A stretch of 28,923 bases of DNA from positions 1 through 28,923 of the IMG/VR virus record IMGVR_UViG_3300009068_000141, one strand, 5' to 3'. Each line of letters opens with the position of its first letter. Position 1 is the stretch's first letter. Below, piece by piece: positions 5,925 through 28,923 of this stretch. Both the position numbers and the translations under genes were made by a program. This DNA comes from a virus. The notes beneath the pieces are model-generated. The model worked only from the letters and a program-made list of their open reading frames with translations. It ran no database searches and had not been told where the DNA came from.

Positions 5925-7438
5925 TGTACAAGATTATTAACGCTTCTAAAGATGCCTACATCACCAACAAGATTGTTTCAAGCCTTCTTAGGGCTAAAGA
6001 TTCCAATACAGGTGGTGCTTCTTCAATAGACCTGTTCAAGCTGTATGATGAAAACACAATCGCAGGAGAGAGCACTCCGATTGAGATCAGTCGGGCTTTA
6101 CTCTACTTTGATCTTGCATCTCTTCGAGATCTAACAGCGTCTTACGTTGATATTTCTTCTCCGTCTTTTAGTGCAAACATCGTTCTACACGACATCTACG
6201 GCGGTCAAACATGCCCAACCAATTTCAAGCTTGCAGTCTTTCCTCTTTCTAAGTCATTTGACGAAGGAATAGGAAGAGATGTAGTAGAGCTTAGAGATGT
6301 TGATGTTTGCAACTTTTTAACTGCATCTGTCTCATCAGGGACACCAGTTACTTGGTCTCAAGAGGGTGCTGGAGCTGTTGGTGCTCTTGGTAGCAGCACC
6401 ATAGACGTCATTGATAGAGGAAACCTGAATGACGGACTCGGATTAAGGTTCCTATTCTCAGAGCAGACATTTTCAAAGGGAACAGAAGATCTAAACGTTG
6501 ACATTACTGATGTTATATCAGGGACTCTCGCAGGTCTAATTCCTGACTGCGGATTTTTAATTGCTTATAGCGGTACGCTTGAGACAGACAATCAGACGCG
6601 CTTTGTTAAGAGATTTGCCTCTAGAAACACTACAGCTGTAGATAAGCGGCCTAAGCTTGTAATCAAGTACGATGATTCAGTTATTGACTACACAAGAGAC
6701 TTCGTCTTCAACGTCTCCGGCAGCATATTCCTGACAAACTACGAAAGAGGAACACCTGCTAACATAGTTTCTGGGTCTTCTGGAACAAGGATATCAGGTT
6801 TAAACTGTGGAAAGCTAAGAATCATCTCAGGAAGCTACTCTCAGACAGTTAACTTTTCTCAGCATAGAAAGGGATCAGATTTCTTCAGCACAGGTCTATA
6901 CAGCGCTTCTTTTGCAATATCATCTTTCGATGCACCTCTTTTCACCTACTTGAAGAATTCATCTTCAGCATCTTTTGATGTCATATGGTCCTCTAATGAT
7001 CTCACAGTTGGGTACCTAACGGGTTCTCTCACAGTCTACAAATCTGAGACTGCTCTGGCAGACCTCGATCCTAAGAGAATATTCACAAACATTACCAACA
7101 TGAACTCGACCTACCTCGCATCAGAGACTATAAGGTTCAGGGTGTTCATTGAAGATCTTGCAAAGTCAATCAAGGCACAAAAGCTACCACTTGAAAATAA
7201 AGGAATATTCATCGAGAAGGTCTACTTTAGAGTTAGAGATCTTGAATCTTCAAAGGTTATAATACCCTTTGATGTTAATTCAACTAGAGTTTCAATGGAT
7301 GCAACGTCAGGATTCTTTGATGTAGATATGAGCTCTCTACCTGTAGGGAGAAATTACACATTTGACTTCCAGATACTTAAGAATGGATCGACGCAGACAA
7401 TTACCAATGTTGCTGCATCGTTTAGGGTGGTAGATTGA
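5924..7438 (+). CDS. Virion protein with N-terminal DNRLRE-like domain
   Basis: A 504-residue probable tail or baseplate-peripheral protein. Residues 1-250 fit the DNRLRE pattern, a jelly-roll known from bacterial surface proteins. The parts are a DAYIT opening, a RALLYFDL strand near residue 60, a central Trp, LNVDITDVISG near 190, a Gly-Phe strand, and the closing RPKLVIKYDD near 240. Residues about 255-385 and 390-504 look like two further beta-sandwich domains. The last contains FIEKVYFRVRDLES and a VIIPFDVNSTRVS strand pair. No enzyme motif is seen. It is coupled to the gp6-like gene (TAATG) and to the next gene (TTGA overlap), so it is likely made in step with the wedge. The role, perhaps glycan contact or decoration, is inferred. 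Confidence 0.7.
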   Translation: MYKIINASKDAYITNKIVSSLLRAKDSNTGGASSIDLFKLYDENTIAGESTPIEISRALLYFDLASLRDLTASYVDISSPSFSANIVLHDIYGGQTCPTNFKLAVFPLSKSFDEGIGRDVVELRDVDVCNFLTASVSSGTPVTWSQEGAGAVGALGSSTIDVIDRGNLNDGLGLRFLFSEQTFSKGTEDLNVDITDVISGTLAGLIPDCGFLIAYSGTLETDNQTRFVKRFASRNTTAVDKRPKLVIKYDDSVIDYTRDFVFNVSGSIFLTNYERGTPANIVSGSSGTRISGLNCGKLRIISGSYSQTVNFSQHRKGSDFFSTGLYSASFAISSFDAPLFTYLKNSSSASFDVIWSSNDLTVGYLTGSLTVYKSETALADLDPKRIFTNITNMNSTYLASETIRFRVFIEDLAKSIKAQKLPLENKGIFIEKVYFRVRDLESSKVIIPFDVNSTRVSMDATSGFFDVDMSSLPVGRNYTFDFQILKNGSTQTITNVAASFRVVD

Positions 7439-10400
7439 GATCAAACAACGGTCGACCTGCAACTATAACAGATATCGAGAGAAACCTTAGATCTCGATAT
7501 CCTGTAAAGTCACTTAGCAACTCTCAGCTAGGTTCGAACAACATTGCTTCGACTTCGTCTTTTAGATACGACCCGCTTGGAACCGGGCTTAGATCGACCC
7601 AAGAAGTTCCACTTGACTGGTCTAAGTTTGAGAATCATACTTTCTTTCACAGTGCAAAAGCAAAAGTAGATGAAGCCTTCTACAAGATCATCAACGAATA
7701 TCCCTTTGATGGAAGCCAGAGAGAAATCGAGTCTTTTGAGGACTCTCTAACAGGCTTTGAAAGCTACGTTATGGGAAGATTCCCTTACAACAAAGGATAT
7801 CTTTTATTTTCCGGTTCTGCCGGCTCAGGCGGAAACTACATTGCAGTTAAAAATAGAGCAGGATTTCTATTTGAGAACTCTAGAGACGATAGTGCAAATC
7901 CGGTTCTTGATCCTCCTGAGAGCTCTTTTACCCTGCAGACTCACCTTTTTATACCAAATGAGTCGAATGATAACGAAATAGTCTGTCAAAGACAGGGATC
8001 CGGTTGTGGTTATACACTTTTTGTATCAAGAAGCACATCATCTTCTGCTGAGGTTCACTTTTTAGTCACTTCCGGATCGAAATCTCTCCACATTAGTGGC
8101 TCTACTCCGAAGAACGGATTTGTCCATGTAGCAGCAGCTCTTAGCTCTAGCAATACTGAAGCTTTTGCTTCTCTTTTCTTCAACGGAGTTAGAGTAGCTA
8201 ATCAACAGAGGCTAACTGATTTTCAGCCGATAGTTCTTGGGTCTGCACAGTTGTTGATTGGATCAGGAACTGAGCACACATCTTCAGGCTTTACTTTCAC
8301 GCCAAAGATGACTCTGAGTGGATGCCTTGACGATCTTAGGTTCTACACCCGTGCAAGAACTGGAGAAGAGATCATTGAAGACTATCTTTCTCTGCCAGAT
8401 TTTGATCCAAGACTTTCTCTGCACTTTAAGTTCAATGAACCGACAGGATCTTTTGCAGGAAACAACATAGTCCTAGACTTCTCTGGAAAGTCTCTACACT
8501 CAGAAATTGTCAATTACACGACTGCATCGCGAGGTCTTTCGTCTCCTTTAAATCCGATGCTGGAAGAAGCGATCGATGACTGCATTGTTCTGTTCTCTAA
8601 CTACCCAGACATCCAGAATCTTCACCAGTCTTTTCTTGACGATGCACAATCTTACGACGATGAGAATCCAAATCTTATCACGAGATTAATTCCGCCGCAG
8701 TATTTGTCTCTTGGTGCTCAATCAGAAGGTCTTAACACAGATCTACAGAACGTAGGACAGTCTCTAAACCTTGAAGAGCTTAGGGGCGGACTGAGTCAGC
8801 AGCAACCTCAGGTAATTCTCGGTCTTTTGTTTGTCTATGCCAAGCTTTTTGATGAGATAAAGATATTTGTTGATCACGTTTCTAACTTAATGAACTTTGA
8901 TTACACAGCTTCTGAGCATATTGCAGATAAAATGATTCCTTTTATCGCAAAAGCAATGAAGATCGATTTACCAGATCTCTTTAGTACACCTTCAGTCAAG
9001 AGACTAGTGAAAGGAGTTGCAATATCAGATGACTATGTTCAGTCTGGTCTTTCTCTAAAGAAGCTTAGGGCTCAAATCTGGAGAAGAATACTAAGCGAGC
9101 ATCAAGGAATGCTCATGAGCAAAGGAACACATAGGTCTATTAGGTCTGCCTTTGCTGCCATGGGAATAGACCCCGATTCTTTCTTTCATATTCGAGAGTT
9201 TGGAGCCAACAAAGGGCGGACAATAGTAGATCTTCGTCACAGAAGAAACAAAGTGTCTTACTTTGCGGATTTTTCTGGTAGCATTAATGCATCTCCGACT
9301 CCTGTTAATTCACTTGGTTTTTCTTCAAATATCCCACGCGCTATAAGCGGATTTCTATCTGGCAGCAGAGTTGAACCCGGTTCTCCGACTATCCAAGGAT
9401 CTTTTGTTAGTGTTGGAAATGAGAGGCTAAGCAACAACAGGTCTGACGGTCTGTGGACTTCAGGCTCTTTCACAGTTGAATCGAGAGTTAGATTTTTACC
9501 ATCAACAAGTCACTCGACCACACAGAGCATAATCCGTCTATGCACAACTGGATCAAGTGTTCCTGCATCTACACATGCAGTGACATTTAACTTAATGGCT
9601 TTTGGCGGATCCAGTCCGTACTTCGAGCTAAGCGCCCGTCCCATTCAGTCGGTCTCATCAGCTGCAACTAGAGTCAGGATCGAAGCAGATCCATTTGATG
9701 GCGGGATCTGGAACCTTTCATTTGGAAAGGCTGCCGGAGAGACCCTAGGAACAGAGCTCGACGAAGTGTTTCTTAGAGTCTCTAGGCAGGTCGGCGGTCT
9801 ACTAACATTCTCTAGCGCGTCTAGTGTGACATTTGTCCCTAGCGATCTCGATGTCCTAAAGAACTATAGCGCTGGATACAACTCATCTGGATCTTTCTTG
9901 GTCATAGGATCTCAAAGCCTGGGGTCTAGCAACCTTTTCTTGAATGGCGACTCAGTCGGGTCTTATTCGAACTTCACAGGTCAGATCTCCAGTATCAGAT
10001 TTTGGTCAAGCTATCTAGATCTAAATGAGTGGATTGATCACTCTAAAGACTTTGAGTCGCTTGGTGTTAGAGATCCAAGAAAAAACTTCAACTTTGAAAA
10101 AAATCTAAGTGGATCCTTCGAAAAGCTTAGACTTGACACGTCGTTCTCTCAAGCATCAATAACAGCTTCAATCGATGGAAATTTCACAGGATTTGATTTC
10201 TCTCAGAGCGCAAAGAGCTTCTCAATGTCAGGATTTGAAGCAAACGAGAGAGTTATCTTCACAGCCGGAGAGACAGTAATGTCTCCTTCTCCCTACTTTG
10301 ATCTTCTAGAAAACGATCAAAAGACTAGAGTTCGGTCTTTGTCAAATCCCCAGCCTGACGAAGTTCTTGCACTTTCTTCTCCGGTATATCAGCTCCCTGA

Positions 10401-10842
10401 GAACGAAGAAGTTCTAGATGACAATAGGCTCTCAATAGAGTACTCATATTCAGCAAATCTGAATAGAGACATCATGAAGGCAGCGTCAAATCTTGACTTC
10501 TTTGATGATGCTTTAGGAAAGCCTAATTCTTATTTTGATAACACCTACTCAGACTTGGATGATTTCTCTAGAGTCTACTTTAACAGGCTTACATCAGATA
10601 TTGATCTTGATAGATTCTCTCGTCTGTATAGATGGCTTGACGGATCTCTCGAAGTCCTGGTCGGTCAACTTGTTCCTGCAAAGACTTACTTCTACGGAAT
10701 AAATCAGGTCATAGAGCCGCATGCACTTGAAAGAAGTAGGCACAGATTCTTTTTCGACGACATGTACTTAAACGAGAAAGACAGATTTACCTCAAGCAAT
10801 CTTGTATTGTCATCTCTTTTTGCGAGGCTTAGAGGATTTTGA
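7435..10842 (+). CDS. Tail-protein-I-like wedge protein with two LamG-like domains
   Basis: A 1135-residue chimeric structural protein. Residues about 460-580 are a helical segment resembling the gpI/gp7-type wedge domain, with VILGLLFVYAKLFDE, a KLRAQIWRRIL helix and the diagnostic Lys-Gly-Thr at 563-565 followed by SIRSAFAAMGI. Around it are two LamG/concanavalin-like beta-sandwiches. The first is at about 160-325, with SSFTLQTHLFIP, HVAAALSSS, FFNGVRV and CLDDLRFYTRA. The second is at about 670-865, with SGSFTVESRVRFLP, LFLNGDSVG and ISSIRFWSSYLD. The C-terminal 270 residues are partly helical, with DLDDFSRVYFNRL and a Trp-rich end. The start is TTG at 7435 in a TTGA overlap with the upstream stop, with AGGGTGG just before. 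It is probably a wedge protein carrying glycan- or host-contact domains. The hybrid architecture is clear; the exact T4 equivalent is not. Confidence 0.7.
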   Translation: MRSNNGRPATITDIERNLRSRYPVKSLSNSQLGSNNIASTSSFRYDPLGTGLRSTQEVPLDWSKFENHTFFHSAKAKVDEAFYKIINEYPFDGSQREIESFEDSLTGFESYVMGRFPYNKGYLLFSGSAGSGGNYIAVKNRAGFLFENSRDDSANPVLDPPESSFTLQTHLFIPNESNDNEIVCQRQGSGCGYTLFVSRSTSSSAEVHFLVTSGSKSLHISGSTPKNGFVHVAAALSSSNTEAFASLFFNGVRVANQQRLTDFQPIVLGSAQLLIGSGTEHTSSGFTFTPKMTLSGCLDDLRFYTRARTGEEIIEDYLSLPDFDPRLSLHFKFNEPTGSFAGNNIVLDFSGKSLHSEIVNYTTASRGLSSPLNPMLEEAIDDCIVLFSNYPDIQNLHQSFLDDAQSYDDENPNLITRLIPPQYLSLGAQSEGLNTDLQNVGQSLNLEELRGGLSQQQPQVILGLLFVYAKLFDEIKIFVDHVSNLMNFDYTASEHIADKMIPFIAKAMKIDLPDLFSTPSVKRLVKGVAISDDYVQSGLSLKKLRAQIWRRILSEHQGMLMSKGTHRSIRSAFAAMGIDPDSFFHIREFGANKGRTIVDLRHRRNKVSYFADFSGSINASPTPVNSLGFSSNIPRAISGFLSGSRVEPGSPTIQGSFVSVGNERLSNNRSDGLWTSGSFTVESRVRFLPSTSHSTTQSIIRLCTTGSSVPASTHAVTFNLMAFGGSSPYFELSARPIQSVSSAATRVRIEADPFDGGIWNLSFGKAAGETLGTELDEVFLRVSRQVGGLLTFSSASSVTFVPSDLDVLKNYSAGYNSSGSFLVIGSQSLGSSNLFLNGDSVGSYSNFTGQISSIRFWSSYLDLNEWIDHSKDFESLGVRDPRKNFNFEKNLSGSFEKLRLDTSFSQASITASIDGNFTGFDFSQSAKSFSMSGFEANERVIFTAGETVMSPSPYFDLLENDQKTRVRSLSNPQPDEVLALSSPVYQLPENEEVLDDNRLSIEYSYSANLNRDIMKAASNLDFFDDALGKPNSYFDNTYSDLDDFSRVYFNRLTSDIDLDRFSRLYRWLDGSLEVLVGQLVPAKTYFYGINQVIEPHALERSRHRFFFDDMYLNEKDRFTSSNLVLSSLFARLRGF

Positions 10843-23714: not shown

Positions 23715-25877
23715 GTGAGCATTGTAGAGATAAACTCTGCCAACTTTGAGACAAGCACGCTTGTTTTACGGCCGAGTGTCATTATTCTTTCCTCGTCGAG
23801 CGGAATTACAGGTTCTGCGCCTATTGTCGCTCGACCGAGCCCTATTGTCAAGGAAGTGTCTGGTTCAAACGACCTTCTAGATCCTGCGGCTGCGGGTGTA
23901 ACTGCATACCTGAGTGCTGTAGCAGCTGCTCCAACACCTAGAAAGAATTCTGAGTCTCTGTCTTTCACAAGGATAGACCAGCCCGTAAGATACACTGCAA
24001 ACTTCACAGCAAAGAGAATAATAACAGAAGTTCTATCAGACCTCTACAGGCCTATCAGGCAGAATCTTGACTTTGGATATTCGAACTACCTGTCTCTGTC
24101 CTTTAGAAAGAGTTCAAATCTTCCAACAAGCAGCGTACTAATATACCCAAATACAGGAAATACTTCTAATCGACAGTACACGCCTACTGGGAGCTTTACT
24201 ATTGACTTCTTTGTAAAGCCGCCTGACAACATTGGAAGAGAGGAAAATTACAGCGCTGGGACTATTCTGCACATTTCTTCAACTCTGGCAATTTCTCTCG
24301 TCACTGGTTCGAGCTACGGAACTGACGGGAATGTTTCCAAGTTTGGAATATGCTTGCAGCTGTCAAGAAGCGCAGACGTTGCACCGAATCTTATCGACCT
24401 CAGCGTCGCTAATGGTTCTAGGTCTCATCCGCAAGATCTCATCTTCGTTTCTCCTTTCACGCTTGAAACAAAGAAGTGGACTAGAGTCACCGTTAGATGG
24501 GATCCTGTGTCTGACCAGAGATCAGGAAGTATCGGATATGATCTCAGAGAAGTGACGGGATTCCAGGTTAATTCAGCTTCTTTGGCCACAAATGCTCTGT
24601 CTGAGGCACTTTTTGTAGGAAACTTCTACGATGGTGTTCCTGGACCTGGCGCTTTTTTCAATCCGTCAGTTGCAGCAAACGAAGGCCTGACTCCTAATCT
24701 TTCTTACTCTTCAGATCCTTCGAGCTTCTCGTTTAGATTTCCTTTCTACGGAGAGATCCACGATCTAAAGATATTCAAGCAGATCTTACCCTACAGGTCC
24801 TTGTTTGACTACAACGCTAAGGGCGACTTAACAGGTTCGGGTTGCTGCTTTTATCTCCCGCCTTTCTTTTCTTCTTACACTAGAAGTAGAAATACTCTAA
24901 TATCTCCGTTTGATGAAGCTTCGTCAGACACAGATTCACCATTTAACGTTGCACTTTCTTACGATTACAACGGCTACTACATCAATCTTGAGAACCACGT
25001 ACAGGAATTTGTCAACAGAGAGTTTCCTCGTCTCTACTCTTTAACAGGATCAGTCTATTCTGGTTTTGCGCTGGGTCAGACTGCAGATTCAATTCTCTAC
25101 AGAAATCCAGAAGTTGCCAAGCGCAACCTGTTGATATCCAACTGTGACCAGAGCGGGTTTGTTAGAAACTACGGATTCATGCGAGAGAGTGACCAGGCAA
25201 GGTCCTACAACGATCGGGGCCTATTCCAAGACGGGTTTGTGTCCCTCCAGTCTCTGGTTACGGCAAGCTATAGAGACTCAATCCTGACAGGGTCTGCTAG
25301 AGTCGGTAGATACACAATAGCAGATAGATTTGCAGACGGATCTTCGAACCAGGTCACCATCTTCTCAATTAGCAACATGCTGTACGGAGACAGGATAAGA
25401 CCAGGAACAGTTGTTCTAACTGATTTAAAGCCTACAGGATCAGACGGAACTTTTTCCAGCGTCCTAAGAGACAACCTAGCTGGAATGCTCTTCAGGTCAG
25501 ACGTTGATGCTCCGGACCTTTCGAACTGTGTTGGAAACGTCTTCTACGAAGAAGGGCTTGTTTTTATCAAATCTCCTTACCTTTCAAAGTTTGGGAAAGA
25601 CGGCGTCAAGATTCAGCTCGAAGGAGAGAGACAGTCAAATGTCTTGGTGATAAACGTTCCTTGCAAGGCTGAGGAGTTCAATGTATCTCCAAATCCGACG
25701 TACATTTCTTGTGCACCTACAGACGCTCCGTATGACGAAGGTGAATCTTTTGTGTATATTACAACCATGAACTTACACGATTCTAACTTCAACATAGTAG
25801 GAAGGGCCACCTACTCACAGCCCGTCATCAAGCGCTCAGGTCAGGACCTTCTCTTTAGAGTAAAGCATGACATCTGA
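23715..25877 (+). CDS. Virion protein with LamG-like domain and shared C-terminal module (copy 2)
   Basis: A 720-residue structural protein. Residues about 115-370 form a LamG/concanavalin-like sandwich: NYLSLSFRK, GSFTIDFFVKPPD, TKKWTRVTVRWDP and GEIHDLKIFKQILPYRS. A Cys-Cys pair then precedes CFYLPPFFSSY. Residues about 400-470 contain SPFNVALSYDYNGYYINLEN and a PRLYSLTGS strand. Residues about 560-720 parallel the previous gene, with GNVFYEEGLVFIKSP and then C-x3-EFNVSPNPTY, FVYITTMNLHDS and FRVKHDI. The start is GTG at 23715, seven bases after GGAG (23704-23707). The 3' end overlaps the RuvC-like gene by 11 bases. Probably a large fibre or receptor-side protein able to contact carbohydrate; that function is inferred from the LamG-like fold. 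Confidence 0.7.
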   Translation: MSIVEINSANFETSTLVLRPSVIILSSSSGITGSAPIVARPSPIVKEVSGSNDLLDPAAAGVTAYLSAVAAAPTPRKNSESLSFTRIDQPVRYTANFTAKRIITEVLSDLYRPIRQNLDFGYSNYLSLSFRKSSNLPTSSVLIYPNTGNTSNRQYTPTGSFTIDFFVKPPDNIGREENYSAGTILHISSTLAISLVTGSSYGTDGNVSKFGICLQLSRSADVAPNLIDLSVANGSRSHPQDLIFVSPFTLETKKWTRVTVRWDPVSDQRSGSIGYDLREVTGFQVNSASLATNALSEALFVGNFYDGVPGPGAFFNPSVAANEGLTPNLSYSSDPSSFSFRFPFYGEIHDLKIFKQILPYRSLFDYNAKGDLTGSGCCFYLPPFFSSYTRSRNTLISPFDEASSDTDSPFNVALSYDYNGYYINLENHVQEFVNREFPRLYSLTGSVYSGFALGQTADSILYRNPEVAKRNLLISNCDQSGFVRNYGFMRESDQARSYNDRGLFQDGFVSLQSLVTASYRDSILTGSARVGRYTIADRFADGSSNQVTIFSISNMLYGDRIRPGTVVLTDLKPTGSDGTFSSVLRDNLAGMLFRSDVDAPDLSNCVGNVFYEEGLVFIKSPYLSKFGKDGVKIQLEGERQSNVLVINVPCKAEEFNVSPNPTYISCAPTDAPYDEGESFVYITTMNLHDSNFNIVGRATYSQPVIKRSGQDLLFRVKHDI

Positions 25878-26388
25878 CTTTGTCTTGGGTCTGGATGTCT
25901 CTACTTCTTGCGTTGGAATTTGTGTAATGGACCAAGCAGGGAGCGTTGTTTGTCTCGACAATGTTGATCTTTCTAAGATCAAGTCTTTCAATGAAAAGTG
26001 TGACGCTGTTCAGAAAAGTCTCTCTCGGTTTTCTGGAAAGATAAAGCAGTTCTACATTGAAGAGTGCGCGAAGGCATTTAGACCTGGCCTCTCTTCGGCT
26101 AACACGTTAACGACTCTCTCGAGGTTCAACGGAGCAGTTTCTTGCATCTGCCACATTCTTTTTGGCGGCGACGAGAACTTAGTCAATCCTGTTGTCGCAA
26201 GAAGGTCAGCCGGAATCTTAATCAACTACAAGGATAAGTCCACTACCACCAAGGATAAGATCTATGAAGCTGTATCTTCTAGAGTTGAATTTGACTGGCC
26301 TAGGACAAAGACAGGAAAGGTCAAACCTCAGTGCTATGACATGGCTGATGCATACGTTGTTGCTTCTTTTGGCTTGAAAAACCAGTAA
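25867..26388 (+). CDS. ruvC-like: RuvC-like Holliday junction resolvase
   Basis: A 173-residue RNase-H-fold endonuclease of the RuvC type, expected to cut branched DNA arising from replication and recombination before packaging. The four acidic positions are visible: Asp10 in VLGLDVSTSCVGI, Glu65 or Glu66 in FYIEE, and Asp158 and Asp161 in CYDMADAYVVA (the D-x2-D pair). The length matches bacterial RuvC. A Lys/Thr-rich segment (NYKDKSTTTKDKI) before the final helix is the likely DNA-contact loop. The ATG at 25867 lies inside the end of the preceding tail gene (11-base overlap), so translation is probably coupled. A 21-base gap leads to the primase gene, with RuvC, primase and SbcDC in one direction. 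Confidence 0.88.
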   Translation: MTSDFVLGLDVSTSCVGICVMDQAGSVVCLDNVDLSKIKSFNEKCDAVQKSLSRFSGKIKQFYIEECAKAFRPGLSSANTLTTLSRFNGAVSCICHILFGGDENLVNPVVARRSAGILINYKDKSTTTKDKIYEAVSSRVEFDWPRTKTGKVKPQCYDMADAYVVASFGLKNQ

Positions 26389-26395
26389 AGAAGAT

Positions 26396-26413
26396 CCACA
26401 ATTTATACTGTGG
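26396..26413 (+). promoter_or_regulatory. Small hairpin over the primase start codon
   Basis: CCACA at 26396-26400 and TGTGG at 26409-26413 can pair around an 8-base AT-rich loop. The right arm contains the GTG start (26410-26412) of the primase gene. The only purine-rich tract nearby (AAGAAGA, 26388-26394) is too far for a normal Shine-Dalgarno. If the stem forms, it would mask the start and reduce primase translation. A five-pair stem is weak and could be chance. TATACT in the loop resembles a -10 box, but any start from it would fall inside the gene. Confidence 0.3.
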
Positions 26414-27372
26414 TTACACTAACTCAAAGAGTCGAAGCACTAAGAAAGGTCTTTCGGATAGCAAGAGTTTCCCGAGACGGATCCGACCTTGCTGTTCCAT
26501 GCCCTGCGTGCAAAGAATCCAACAAGACGAAGCTCTCTGTCAACATTGAGACGCTGCAGTTTCACTGCTGGGTCTGTGGAGTCAAGGGTTCAAAAATCAC
26601 CAGGCTTGTCAGAGAGCACATCGGAGAAGATGAAGCTAGCTGGCTTTCTCACGCTCTCGGAGAAGAGAACGACAAGTTCATCCAGATTGAAGAAGAGCAG
26701 GAAATTCTTCCTGACCTTCCTGAGAAGTCTACTCCGATAGTCATCTGTGACTCAAGAGATCCAAACTTTAGAGCTGTCAAAAGGTACTGCGAACGCAGAG
26801 GACTAACAGAGAAAGATCTTTGGAAGTACAGGATCTGCTGGTCGCCAGAAGACAAGTTCCAAAGAAGGGTCATCTTCGCCTCGGTGGACCTTGTAGGAGA
26901 TCTAAATTACTGGGTATCTAGATCGATAGATCCTGACACAAAGGTGCGGTACATTAACTGCCCAGTCCCAAAAGACAAGATCATCTTTAATGAGATTGAT
27001 GTTGACTTTTCGAAACCTGTTTGCATCTTTGAAGGCCCGTTTGATCTAATAAAGACAAAAGTAAACGGAACATGTTTGCTTGGATCTTCTGTCTCTCGTA
27101 CTTCTCGGCTTCTTTCGAGGCTTGTTGCATCTGAATCTGATGTTGTTCTTTGCCTCGACAGAGACGTTCAAGATAAGGAGAGTAGAATAGCTGATAGACT
27201 CTCTGAGTGGGGGCTCTCAGTTAAGATTGCTAAGCCTCCTGCAAAATATAAGGACTTTGGAGAGACTCCTCGGGAGGAAGCTTTGAAATGCATCGATAAA
27301 GCAAAACCGTGGAGCTACAACGCAAGCTTCACACACAAACTGTCTAAGATTTCAAGTGGATCGCTTCTATGA
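26410..27372 (+). CDS. DNA primase, zinc ribbon plus TOPRIM
   Basis: A 320-residue DnaG-superfamily primase that would make RNA primers for lagging-strand synthesis. The zinc ribbon is at residues 31-56: CPAC (C31, C34), then HCWVC (C53, C56), C-x2-C-x18-C-x2-C. The TOPRIM core has E208 in FEGPFDLI (E-G-x2-D) and the D-x-D of CLDRD (D250, D252). Length is close to T4 gp61 (342 aa), and no helicase domain follows. GTG at 26410 is chosen because no other ATG, GTG or TTG occurs in frame before the zinc ribbon and the frame has a stop at 26386-26388. The start sits in a small potential hairpin. The 3' end overlaps the SbcDC-like gene as ATGA. Confidence 0.88.
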   Translation: MVTLTQRVEALRKVFRIARVSRDGSDLAVPCPACKESNKTKLSVNIETLQFHCWVCGVKGSKITRLVREHIGEDEASWLSHALGEENDKFIQIEEEQEILPDLPEKSTPIVICDSRDPNFRAVKRYCERRGLTEKDLWKYRICWSPEDKFQRRVIFASVDLVGDLNYWVSRSIDPDTKVRYINCPVPKDKIIFNEIDVDFSKPVCIFEGPFDLIKTKVNGTCLLGSSVSRTSRLLSRLVASESDVVLCLDRDVQDKESRIADRLSEWGLSVKIAKPPAKYKDFGETPREEALKCIDKAKPWSYNASFTHKLSKISSGSLL

Positions 27373-28923
27373 AAATTGCACACATTGCAGACGTCCACAT
27401 TCGTGGATTCCAGAGACATGAAGAGTACAGAAAGAGCTTCGAAGATCTTTTCGCGTCTCTGTCTATCGAGCAACCAGACGTAATCTTGGTTGTTGGTGAC
27501 ATCGTTCATTCCAAGACTCACAACATCACACCCGAACTGATAGAGATCACAACCTGGTTCTTTAAGAGCCTTGCTGATGTTGCACCAGTTCACATGGTTC
27601 TTGGAAATCACGACGGCCTCATTCACAACAAAGATAGGCAAGATGCGATCACACCCATCGTCACTGCTATCAACTCAGAAAAGATCAAGCTCTGGAAGAA
27701 GAGCGGAGAGATCTTTGCAGACTGTAGCGAGCGCATCTCCATTCACAGCTTTTCCTGCTTCGACGAAGAGTCTTGGAGCAGCATCGCCCCGAGAGACGGT
27801 CATACAAATATCGCTCTGTTCCACGGATCTGTCAATAAGTGCCTAAGTGATCAGAACGTAGAGATGACAGGCGTCTCGATGTCTATGTTCGAAGGCTTTG
27901 ACTTTGGAATCTTTGGAGACATACACAAGAGGCAGTCTCTTGACGGCGAAGGTCGTTTTAAGTACTGTGGGTCTCTAATCCAGCAGAACTTCGGAGAAGA
28001 GACAGACAAGGGTTATCTTGTCTGGAACATAAAGGATCGAAGTGACTGGAGCTGCAACTTCGTCAAAGTTAAAAATGATCATCCATTTATCACTATAGAC
28101 GCAAATACTACTCCTGAGGACATCGAGTCAATACCTCTGTCAGCCAAAGTAAGAATCATTGCGAAGGACAAGAACGATCCAGATGTCTTGTCAATTGTTC
28201 GGCATCTCAAGAAAGACAAGAAAATCTCTGATGTCATCGTCAGAGAGACCGAATCTCAGCTAAGAACGTTGCAGGACACAGTTCTGTCCACCGGAGATGT
28301 AAGCTACCTGGATTACTTCAGCGAGTACGTTGCTAAGAACGTGGACGATCCTGCAATGAGAGAGAAGATCGTCCAAGAATTTAGCAAGTATCTTGAGCAA
28401 ACAGACTACTCTGAGTCGAGAAGCGTAGACCACTGGAGCTTAAAGTCTTTAAAGTTCAATAATCTCTTTAGCTACGGAGAGAGCAATTCTATAGACTTTG
28501 ACAAGCTTAGTGGAATTACTGGAATCTTTGCAAAGAACCGCGCAGGAAAGTCTTCTATTGTTGGCTCTCTCTGCTACGCTCTCTTCAACGAGGTCGACAG
28601 ATCTCTGCCCCGTTCTCACTTTATAATAAACTCAGATAGCGATTCCTGCGACGCTGAGGTTATCTTCTCTGCAAGGAGCAACGACTATCTGGTCAAGAGA
28701 TCGACTACAAGAGTTAAGACAAAGAAGGGCGAGTCTTCAACGACAAACGTTTCTCTAGGAAGATTCACAGAGTCAGGATCTGTCATGATGGACGATGAAC
28801 AGAGAAGAGAGACAGACAAGATCGTAAGAGGCATCATTGGATCTCCTTCTGATTTTTTTGAATCTGCAGTAGCTTCTCAAGGCCAGCTTCTAAATTTTCT
28901 TGATCACAAATCGACGAGTAGAA
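27369..28923 (+). CDS. sbcD-sbcC fusion: SbcD-SbcC (Mre11-Rad50 type) fusion, 3' end beyond window
   Basis: One open frame of 518 codons without a stop joins a metallophosphoesterase nuclease to the start of an SMC-like ATPase. The Mre11/SbcD half (about 1-220) shows D8-x-H10, GDIVH (D44, H47), GNHD (79-82), FHG (H152) and GDIHK (183-187), where most relatives have GHIH. CGSLIQQNFGEE follows. Residues about 300-360 are helical and likely correspond to the Rad50-binding part. From about residue 365 the Rad50/SbcC half begins: LKSLKFNNLFSYGES, a Walker A at 388-396 (AKNRAGKSS), and a probable Q-loop ASQGQLLNFL with Q504. The ATG at 27369 overlaps the primase stop (ATGA). T4 encodes these as separate gp47 and gp46. 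The coiled coil, hook and Walker B must lie beyond 28923. The expected role is processing of DNA ends for recombination-dependent replication. Confidence 0.88.
   Translation, partial: MKIAHIADVHIRGFQRHEEYRKSFEDLFASLSIEQPDVILVVGDIVHSKTHNITPELIEITTWFFKSLADVAPVHMVLGNHDGLIHNKDRQDAITPIVTAINSEKIKLWKKSGEIFADCSERISIHSFSCFDEESWSSIAPRDGHTNIALFHGSVNKCLSDQNVEMTGVSMSMFEGFDFGIFGDIHKRQSLDGEGRFKYCGSLIQQNFGEETDKGYLVWNIKDRSDWSCNFVKVKNDHPFITIDANTTPEDIESIPLSAKVRIIAKDKNDPDVLSIVRHLKKDKKISDVIVRETESQLRTLQDTVLSTGDVSYLDYFSEYVAKNVDDPAMREKIVQEFSKYLEQTDYSESRSVDHWSLKSLKFNNLFSYGESNSIDFDKLSGITGIFAKNRAGKSSIVGSLCYALFNEVDRSLPRSHFIINSDSDSCDAEVIFSARSNDYLVKRSTTRVKTKKGESSTTNVSLGRFTESGSVMMDDEQRRETDKIVRGIIGSPSDFFESAVASQGQLLNFLDHKSTSR

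Follow-up and report, generated by a model that had tools for sequence, protein, structure and literature searches.

The window analyzed here, one virus record of 28,923 bases from IMG/VR, ends inside a gene that appears to encode the nuclease Mre11 (SbcD) and the ATPase Rad50 (SbcC) as a single polypeptide. This raises the questions of whether the single chain is real, what in it is new, and whether it would work as an ordinary Mre11-Rad50 complex. Viral Mre11-Rad50 fusions have been published, as the sequence-only reading of the window had surmised: 13 fusions were described by Yoshida, Claverie and Ogata (2011; PMC3175470), with cases in Mimivirus (R555), Bacillus phage 0305phi8-36, plasmids, algae, some bacteria and eukaryotes. 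Homologues of R555 are abundant in aquatic metagenomes, where they probably belong to phages, and several of their scaffolds carry primases (PMC3175470). The fusion itself and the argument drawn from its short linker are thus not new, since both are in that paper, whose main text makes no mention of the hook, of its cysteines or of split genes. In the literature, we found neither a later paper devoted to Mre11-Rad50 fusions nor biochemistry on any member of the family of the window gene.

A Single Reading Frame for Nuclease and ATPase

The Mre11/SbcD-Rad50/SbcC fusion gene occupies positions 27369-28923 and is cut by the window end after codon 518 of 1015 (this gene, its parts and its two upstream neighbors all lie on the plus strand). 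Its frame (27369-28922) runs for 518 codons without a stop and exits the window. The uncut gene was found in L002 (IMGVR_UViG_3300017774_006867, positions 6001-9048), a contig from another metagenome that represents the same locus, with 100% identity over the 518 residues, and that encodes 1015 aa in a single frame. The single-chain SbcD-SbcC first read from the truncated sequence is thus borne out by one stop-free frame, by its motifs and by Pfam, and L002 provides the full chain, in which the C-terminal ATPase lobe that remained to be checked is whole and in frame to residue 1015.

When viral contigs were searched with the relative P0003 and with a hook pattern, about 190 additional loci came to light. 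Other single-chain Mre11-Rad50 proteins, for which a search had been proposed from the sequence, were indeed present, with 104 complete fused chains among the collected loci. Of the 177 loci spanning the nuclease-ATPase joint, 176 had it in a single frame. The gene of the remaining locus, L129 (L129:3424-6500), shows successive frame changes over its whole length, probably caused by sequencing or base-calling errors, and was set aside.

Since the metagenomic contig stops inside the gene, and since T4, the Moorella phage, cyanophages and T5-like phages carry the two enzymes as separate genes, one could suspect an assembly or sequencing artefact in which adjacent sbcD and sbcC genes were joined by a missed stop or a frameshift. 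However, the same joint is present in L002 and in L003, both from other metagenomes, in L004, a further independent contig, and in more than 170 loci, while in the isolated Microcystis phage Mel-JY01 the gene (L005:4953-8153) is annotated as a single CDS, described just as "AAA domain containing protein". We therefore rejected the artefact, whose probability is negligible.

Pfam detected Metallophos (4e-15), SMC_N (3e-12), AAA_23 (2e-8) and SbcC_Walker_B (3e-6) in the 1015-aa protein. Pfam, PHROGs and Foldseek assigned its first third to Mre11/SbcD and the remainder to Rad50/SbcC, and the halves matched the structures of E. coli SbcCD (7yzp), T. maritima Mre11:Rad50 (3qg5/3tho) and S. aureus SbcD (7dog). 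The AlphaFold model (pLDDT 84.5) has the domain order expected for Mre11-Rad50, with a pTM of 0.51 that makes the placement of the nuclease half relative to the ATPase half low-confidence. An SMC-type coiled-coil ATPase plus a nuclease might also suggest a different nuclease-ATPase or defense system, for instance an SMC system of the Lamassu or Wadjet type, and JetABC and MukB are among the Foldseek matches as well. We consider this very improbable because Pfam, PHROG and fold all identify the nuclease half as Mre11/SbcD, with the full Mre11 motifs, because the top structural matches are to Mre11-Rad50/SbcCD, and because in phage genomes the gene comes after that of a primase.

The Nuclease Half

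This half begins with a calcineurin-like nuclease domain (residues 1-233, positions 27369-28067; Pfam Metallophos 4.4e-15 and AlphaFold secondary structure). It continues with a capping domain (residues 240-293, 28086-28247, delimited by position and by AlphaFold strands and helices) and ends with a helix-loop-helix (HLH) that resembles the Rad50-binding element (residues 313-343, 28305-28397; AlphaFold helices 313-324 and 328-343). The sequence and fold features by which Mre11/SbcD is recognized are thus present, with motifs I to V in order. Conservation was counted over 61 representative homologues, in all of which (61/61) the following residues are invariant: D8 and H10 of motif I (D8-x-H10, 27390-27398), D44 and H47 of motif II (GDIVH, residues 43-47, 27495-27509), N80 and H81 of motif III (GNHD, residues 79-82, 27603-27614), His152 of motif IV (27822-27824), and D184 and H186 of motif V (GDIHK, residues 183-187, 27915-27929).

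In motif V, D184 occupies the position of the canonical Mre11 His (Pfu H206); R555 of Mimivirus has the same Asp for His206 (PMC3175470). Since D184 replaces a canonical metal-ligand His, the nuclease activity could differ, and one could go further and suppose that the fusion is no longer a nuclease and serves mainly as an end tether or as a loader of replication proteins. This we regard as unlikely: all ligand positions, D184 included, are kept in 61/61 homologues, whereas a decayed site would drift, and the split T5-like enzymes also show GDLH.

The Linker and the ATPase Half

AlphaFold places the linker between the two halves at residues 344-354 (28398-28430), and its 11 residues agree with the roughly ten that had been estimated from the sequence. 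It is followed by W356, the first Trp of the Rad50 part, which is found at the joint in 61/61 homologues. In the same set, linker length was 10-14 residues overall and 11-12 in 51 of 61, and the stretch corresponding to residues 210-356 was 133 to 172 residues long. In T. maritima, the Mre11 C-terminus lies about 28 A from the Rad50 N-terminus, a gap that a 9-12-residue linker spans (PMC3175470). A linker of this length is therefore compatible with the usual complex, and there is no need for it to create a different one. Of the earlier suggestion that it seems to lock nuclease and ATPase in a 1:1 arrangement, the constraint on length holds, but the case for a new arrangement is weaker, M2R2 being already 1:1.

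The N-terminal lobe of Rad50/SbcC (residues 355-518, 28431-28922) matched Pfam AAA_23 and SMC_N, PHROG phrog_77 (3.7e-62) and, with Foldseek, SbcCD and Mre11:Rad50. It contains the Walker A motif (AKNRAGKSS, residues 388-396, 28530-28556), whose K394 is invariant (61/61), and the Q-loop Gln504 (28878-28880), conserved in 59/61. Both motifs, like those of the nuclease (D8/H10, GDIVH, GNHD and GDIHK), are at the residues where they had been placed from the letters. Beyond the window, L002 carries the coiled coil, the SGMEKM signature, the IDEGFGALD Walker B/D-loop and the switch His; G928, D957 and E958 of the C lobe are conserved in 61/61 homologues, and S927 and D964 in 59/61. The AlphaFold coiled-coil arms consist of helices 529-697 and 708-866, interrupted at a few points, and the C lobe continues on to residue 1015. 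The chain thus combines Walker A, Q-loop, signature, Walker B, D-loop and an antiparallel coiled coil, as does Rad50/SbcC.

A C-X6-C Apex in Place of the CXXC Hook

Reading past position 28923 in L002 yielded the coiled coil, Walker B and D-loop that had been anticipated, but not the CXXC zinc hook, which has been described as highly conserved (PMC9569753). In the window family, the apex is C700-X6-C707 (VPCGDxFPxCxFI), with the clade consensus VPC[GED]xx[FY]xxCxF and conserved flanking aromatic and aliphatic residues; C707 is invariant in the 61/61 representatives. By its sequence, we class the C-X6-C apex as a variant of the hook that arose among the fused chains or their kin, all the other Rad50 features being present, and its replacement of CXXC in the window family is novel with respect to PMC3175470.

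We think that the C-X6-C apex is probably still bridged by a metal. The identity of the protein could also be as proposed while its apex acts as a disulfide or as a purely hydrophobic clasp, in keeping with a spacing unlike the published CXXC and with the conserved aromatic and aliphatic flanks. Such a clasp is possible but the less likely reading, given that both cysteines are present in every CX6C member, where they stand at either end of the loop that joins the coiled-coil helices at the apex, and that the sister clades of the fused family have CXXC at the same place.

The split phage enzymes that we checked had CPTC or CPVC hooks, except for Moorella phage MTATph1. The SbcC-like subunit of this phage (L199:2926-5058) has a similar wide hook (VPCNDKLKPSC) but is a stand-alone Rad50 encoded by a separate gene, with C-X7-C spacing. 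In a strict-motif scan (120 loci listed), the hook frames with an upstream stop were all fused or re-split, L129 apart. No stand-alone Rad50 with the strict C-X6-C motif occurred among the 120 loci listed, in a scan whose pattern was derived from the window family, so that other wide-hook forms may fall outside it. Within the tree, L069 (L069:4989-8153) is a fusion with a CXXC hook nested among the CX6C fusions. The C-X7-C apex of the Moorella phage and the CXXC of L069 suggest that a wide hook may already have existed before the two enzymes were fused; the hook has changed more than once, and its type has switched within the family.

Relatives Split Again Inside the Nuclease

In 16 relatives (L029, L030, L034, L038, L041, L048, L070, L071, L086, L087, L106, L110, L150, L159, L182, and L196), the chain is cut after GDIHK, around residues 188-199, that is, within the nuclease; locus comparison places the corresponding loop at positions 27930-27965 of the window, where it is intact. 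The N-terminal half of these relatives (about 220 aa) retains all the metal ligands, and the C-terminal half carries the end of the nuclease fold, the capping domain, the HLH and Rad50 in one chain. The latter starts with a basic strand, M-S/G-K-R-I-K-I-R, and in the 14 cases examined the halves had acidic tails (-3 to -11) and basic heads (+1 to +7). Several pairs overlap at TTGA or ATGA. Searches of Pfam and PHROGs with the tail peptides returned weak matches only.

The split forms appeared in at least three places in the tree. Two unsplit genes, L032:29-3184 and L115:708-3848, were nested in the re-split clade and had a longer loop at the site than most fused members; they may be either re-fused or never split. 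By sequence comparison, the renewed cut of a fused chain inside its nuclease is a second novelty with respect to PMC3175470, and we found no report of a split Mre11 nuclease in the literature searched.

An interruption of the gene by a group I intron was rejected, as seven loci gave no Rfam match. Recoded stops were also rejected for most split genes, in which the C-terminal half lies in another frame or has its own conserved start (M-S/G-K). The halves of L029, L034 and L038 are in the same frame, separated by one TAA, and were read through for folding only. In the AlphaFold model of L034 obtained in this way, the tail strands 188-200 and 211-218 adjoin the head strand 221-235 (pLDDT about 80-94), which supports, without proving, a docking of the two halves, as folding them in a single chain favors contact.

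Phage genes can be split by homing endonucleases, as in Aeh1 nrdA/mobE and T4 gene 60/mobA (PMC2988022); Aeh1 NrdA, which is still functional when split by mobE, is the nearest precedent (PMC2988022). As in these cases, the cut falls in a conserved region, and a candidate endonuclease ORF lies exactly between the halves in two loci. In L196, a 484-kb huge phage of the CXXC clade, this ORF (L196:3680-4597) matched an HNH PHROG (3.5e-15) and a TnsA-like one (5.8e-6), and in L041 (L041:1958-2845) it gave weak matches only, nothing firm. No endonuclease-like ORF was found between the halves of the other split loci. The likeness to the homing splits concerns the relatives only, unlike the window gene, which is uncut.

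Because the nuclease is repeatedly broken while the joint is unbroken in the 176 readable loci, a count whose statistical weight is weakened by the common ancestry of the loci, these comparisons suggest that it is the joint that selection maintains.

Genomic Context and Distribution

A gene for a DnaG-like primase with a zinc ribbon and a Toprim domain (26410-27372; PHROG DNA primase 2.6e-45) precedes the fusion, and a RuvC-like resolvase gene (25867-26388; PHROG RuvC-like 7.8e-9) lies directly 5' of the primase gene. The primase gene overlaps the start codon of the fusion (ATGA at 27369-27372, including the primase stop), and the two are probably translationally coupled. More generally, a primase was found at most 5 kb upstream in 100 of the 109 family loci with enough flank, with a median gap of 10 nt. 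In L002, terminase and portal genes follow the fusion, and the gp25 and baseplate-wedge genes of the window indicate a contractile-tailed phage. The window also encodes a 1135-aa structural protein with a Laminin_G_3/concanavalin-like domain (7435-10842), several other large proteins without Pfam match, and a glycosyltransferase group 1 gene truncated at its left end (3-896). A partial terminase duplicate in L003 (L003:3406-3530, a repeat of "AAFVRDFDTLWTGLYPTLSTGG") is probably an assembly error.

The same profiles detected no separate second SbcC/SbcD pair in 13 long phage records (127-484 kb), bearing in mind that very divergent copies could escape the profiles and that virus records may be incomplete. 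As a control, the SbcC profile had a match in 14/14 control genomes. In Mel-JY01, the SbcC profile had just two further matches, both weak. Some contigs of cellular MAGs also carry the fused gene. In at least one of them (L214; CP070664.1, 901217-913055), the "chromosome" of a candidate division WOR-3 MAG with N-masked stretches, the gene again has primase and RuvC-like genes as neighbors, along with phage-like ones; this is probably phage DNA, and phage contigs seem to have been merged into the MAG. A search of plasmids returned no fused relative spanning most of the query.

Discussion

The fusion of the window is real and of a kind already known; its hook is a variant, and in relatives the chain has had an unexpected later fate. 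In our preferred reading, to which we give a probability of roughly 0.78, the product of the gene is an entire phage Mre11-Rad50 machine in one polypeptide, acting in M2R2 end resection with a C-X6-C clasp. The order of the chain would be nuclease, capping domain, HLH, 11-residue linker and Rad50 ATPase with a coiled coil of medium length. Two chains would pair through their nuclease domains, their ATP-bound heads and the coiled-coil apex to form a normal M2R2, each HLH sitting beside the Rad50 root of its own chain. ATP would drive the gripping of DNA ends and the opening of the nuclease, and the ends of phage DNA would be resected and bridged for recombination-dependent replication. T4 gp46/47 has been described as acting in this way, and such a role has been proposed for R555 (PMC3175470). 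We infer dimerization, the nuclease and ATPase activities, the metal at the hook and the role in replication from homology.

The window protein resembles R555 and the aquatic-phage fusions of PMC3175470 in having the nuclease first and Rad50 second, a retained HLH, a linker of about 9-12 residues and Asp for His206, and in its occurrence in aquatic viruses with a primase on the scaffold. R555, compared here by its published description, differs in its 1351 aa and its coiled coil of cellular length, against 1015 aa in the window protein. Mel-JY01 (WWT39521.1) shares with the window protein the single nuclease-ATPase chain and the upstream primase, with about 31% identity over 77% of the chain, but has a canonical CXXC hook (DPKCKHC) and belongs to another clade. 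The T4 gp47/gp46 and T5 D12/D13 pairs are the same two enzymes of phage recombination and replication, but encoded by two genes and with CPTC hooks. In our tree, 7/7 split references fell outside the fused family, which was separated by a 98%-supported branch.

A wider and more tentative proposal, with somewhat less than even odds, is that this is a large virus-only subfamily with a selected joint and with the CXXC hook remade as a wide C-X6-C clasp, in which at least three lineages had their nuclease cut by mobile endonucleases, the halves re-docking into a working enzyme through acidic tail and basic head. The re-split relatives would then provide a naturally occurring split nuclease, together with its predicted docking peptides. 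The compact 1015-aa natural fusion, with its fixed stoichiometry and constrained linker, is a ready structural and single-molecule model for the gating of Mre11 by Rad50, and its C-X6-C apex tests how important the CXXC spacing is in the zinc hook. Aquatic phages carry this family in abundance, and in the 13 long genomes that we examined no other Mre11-Rad50 was detected.
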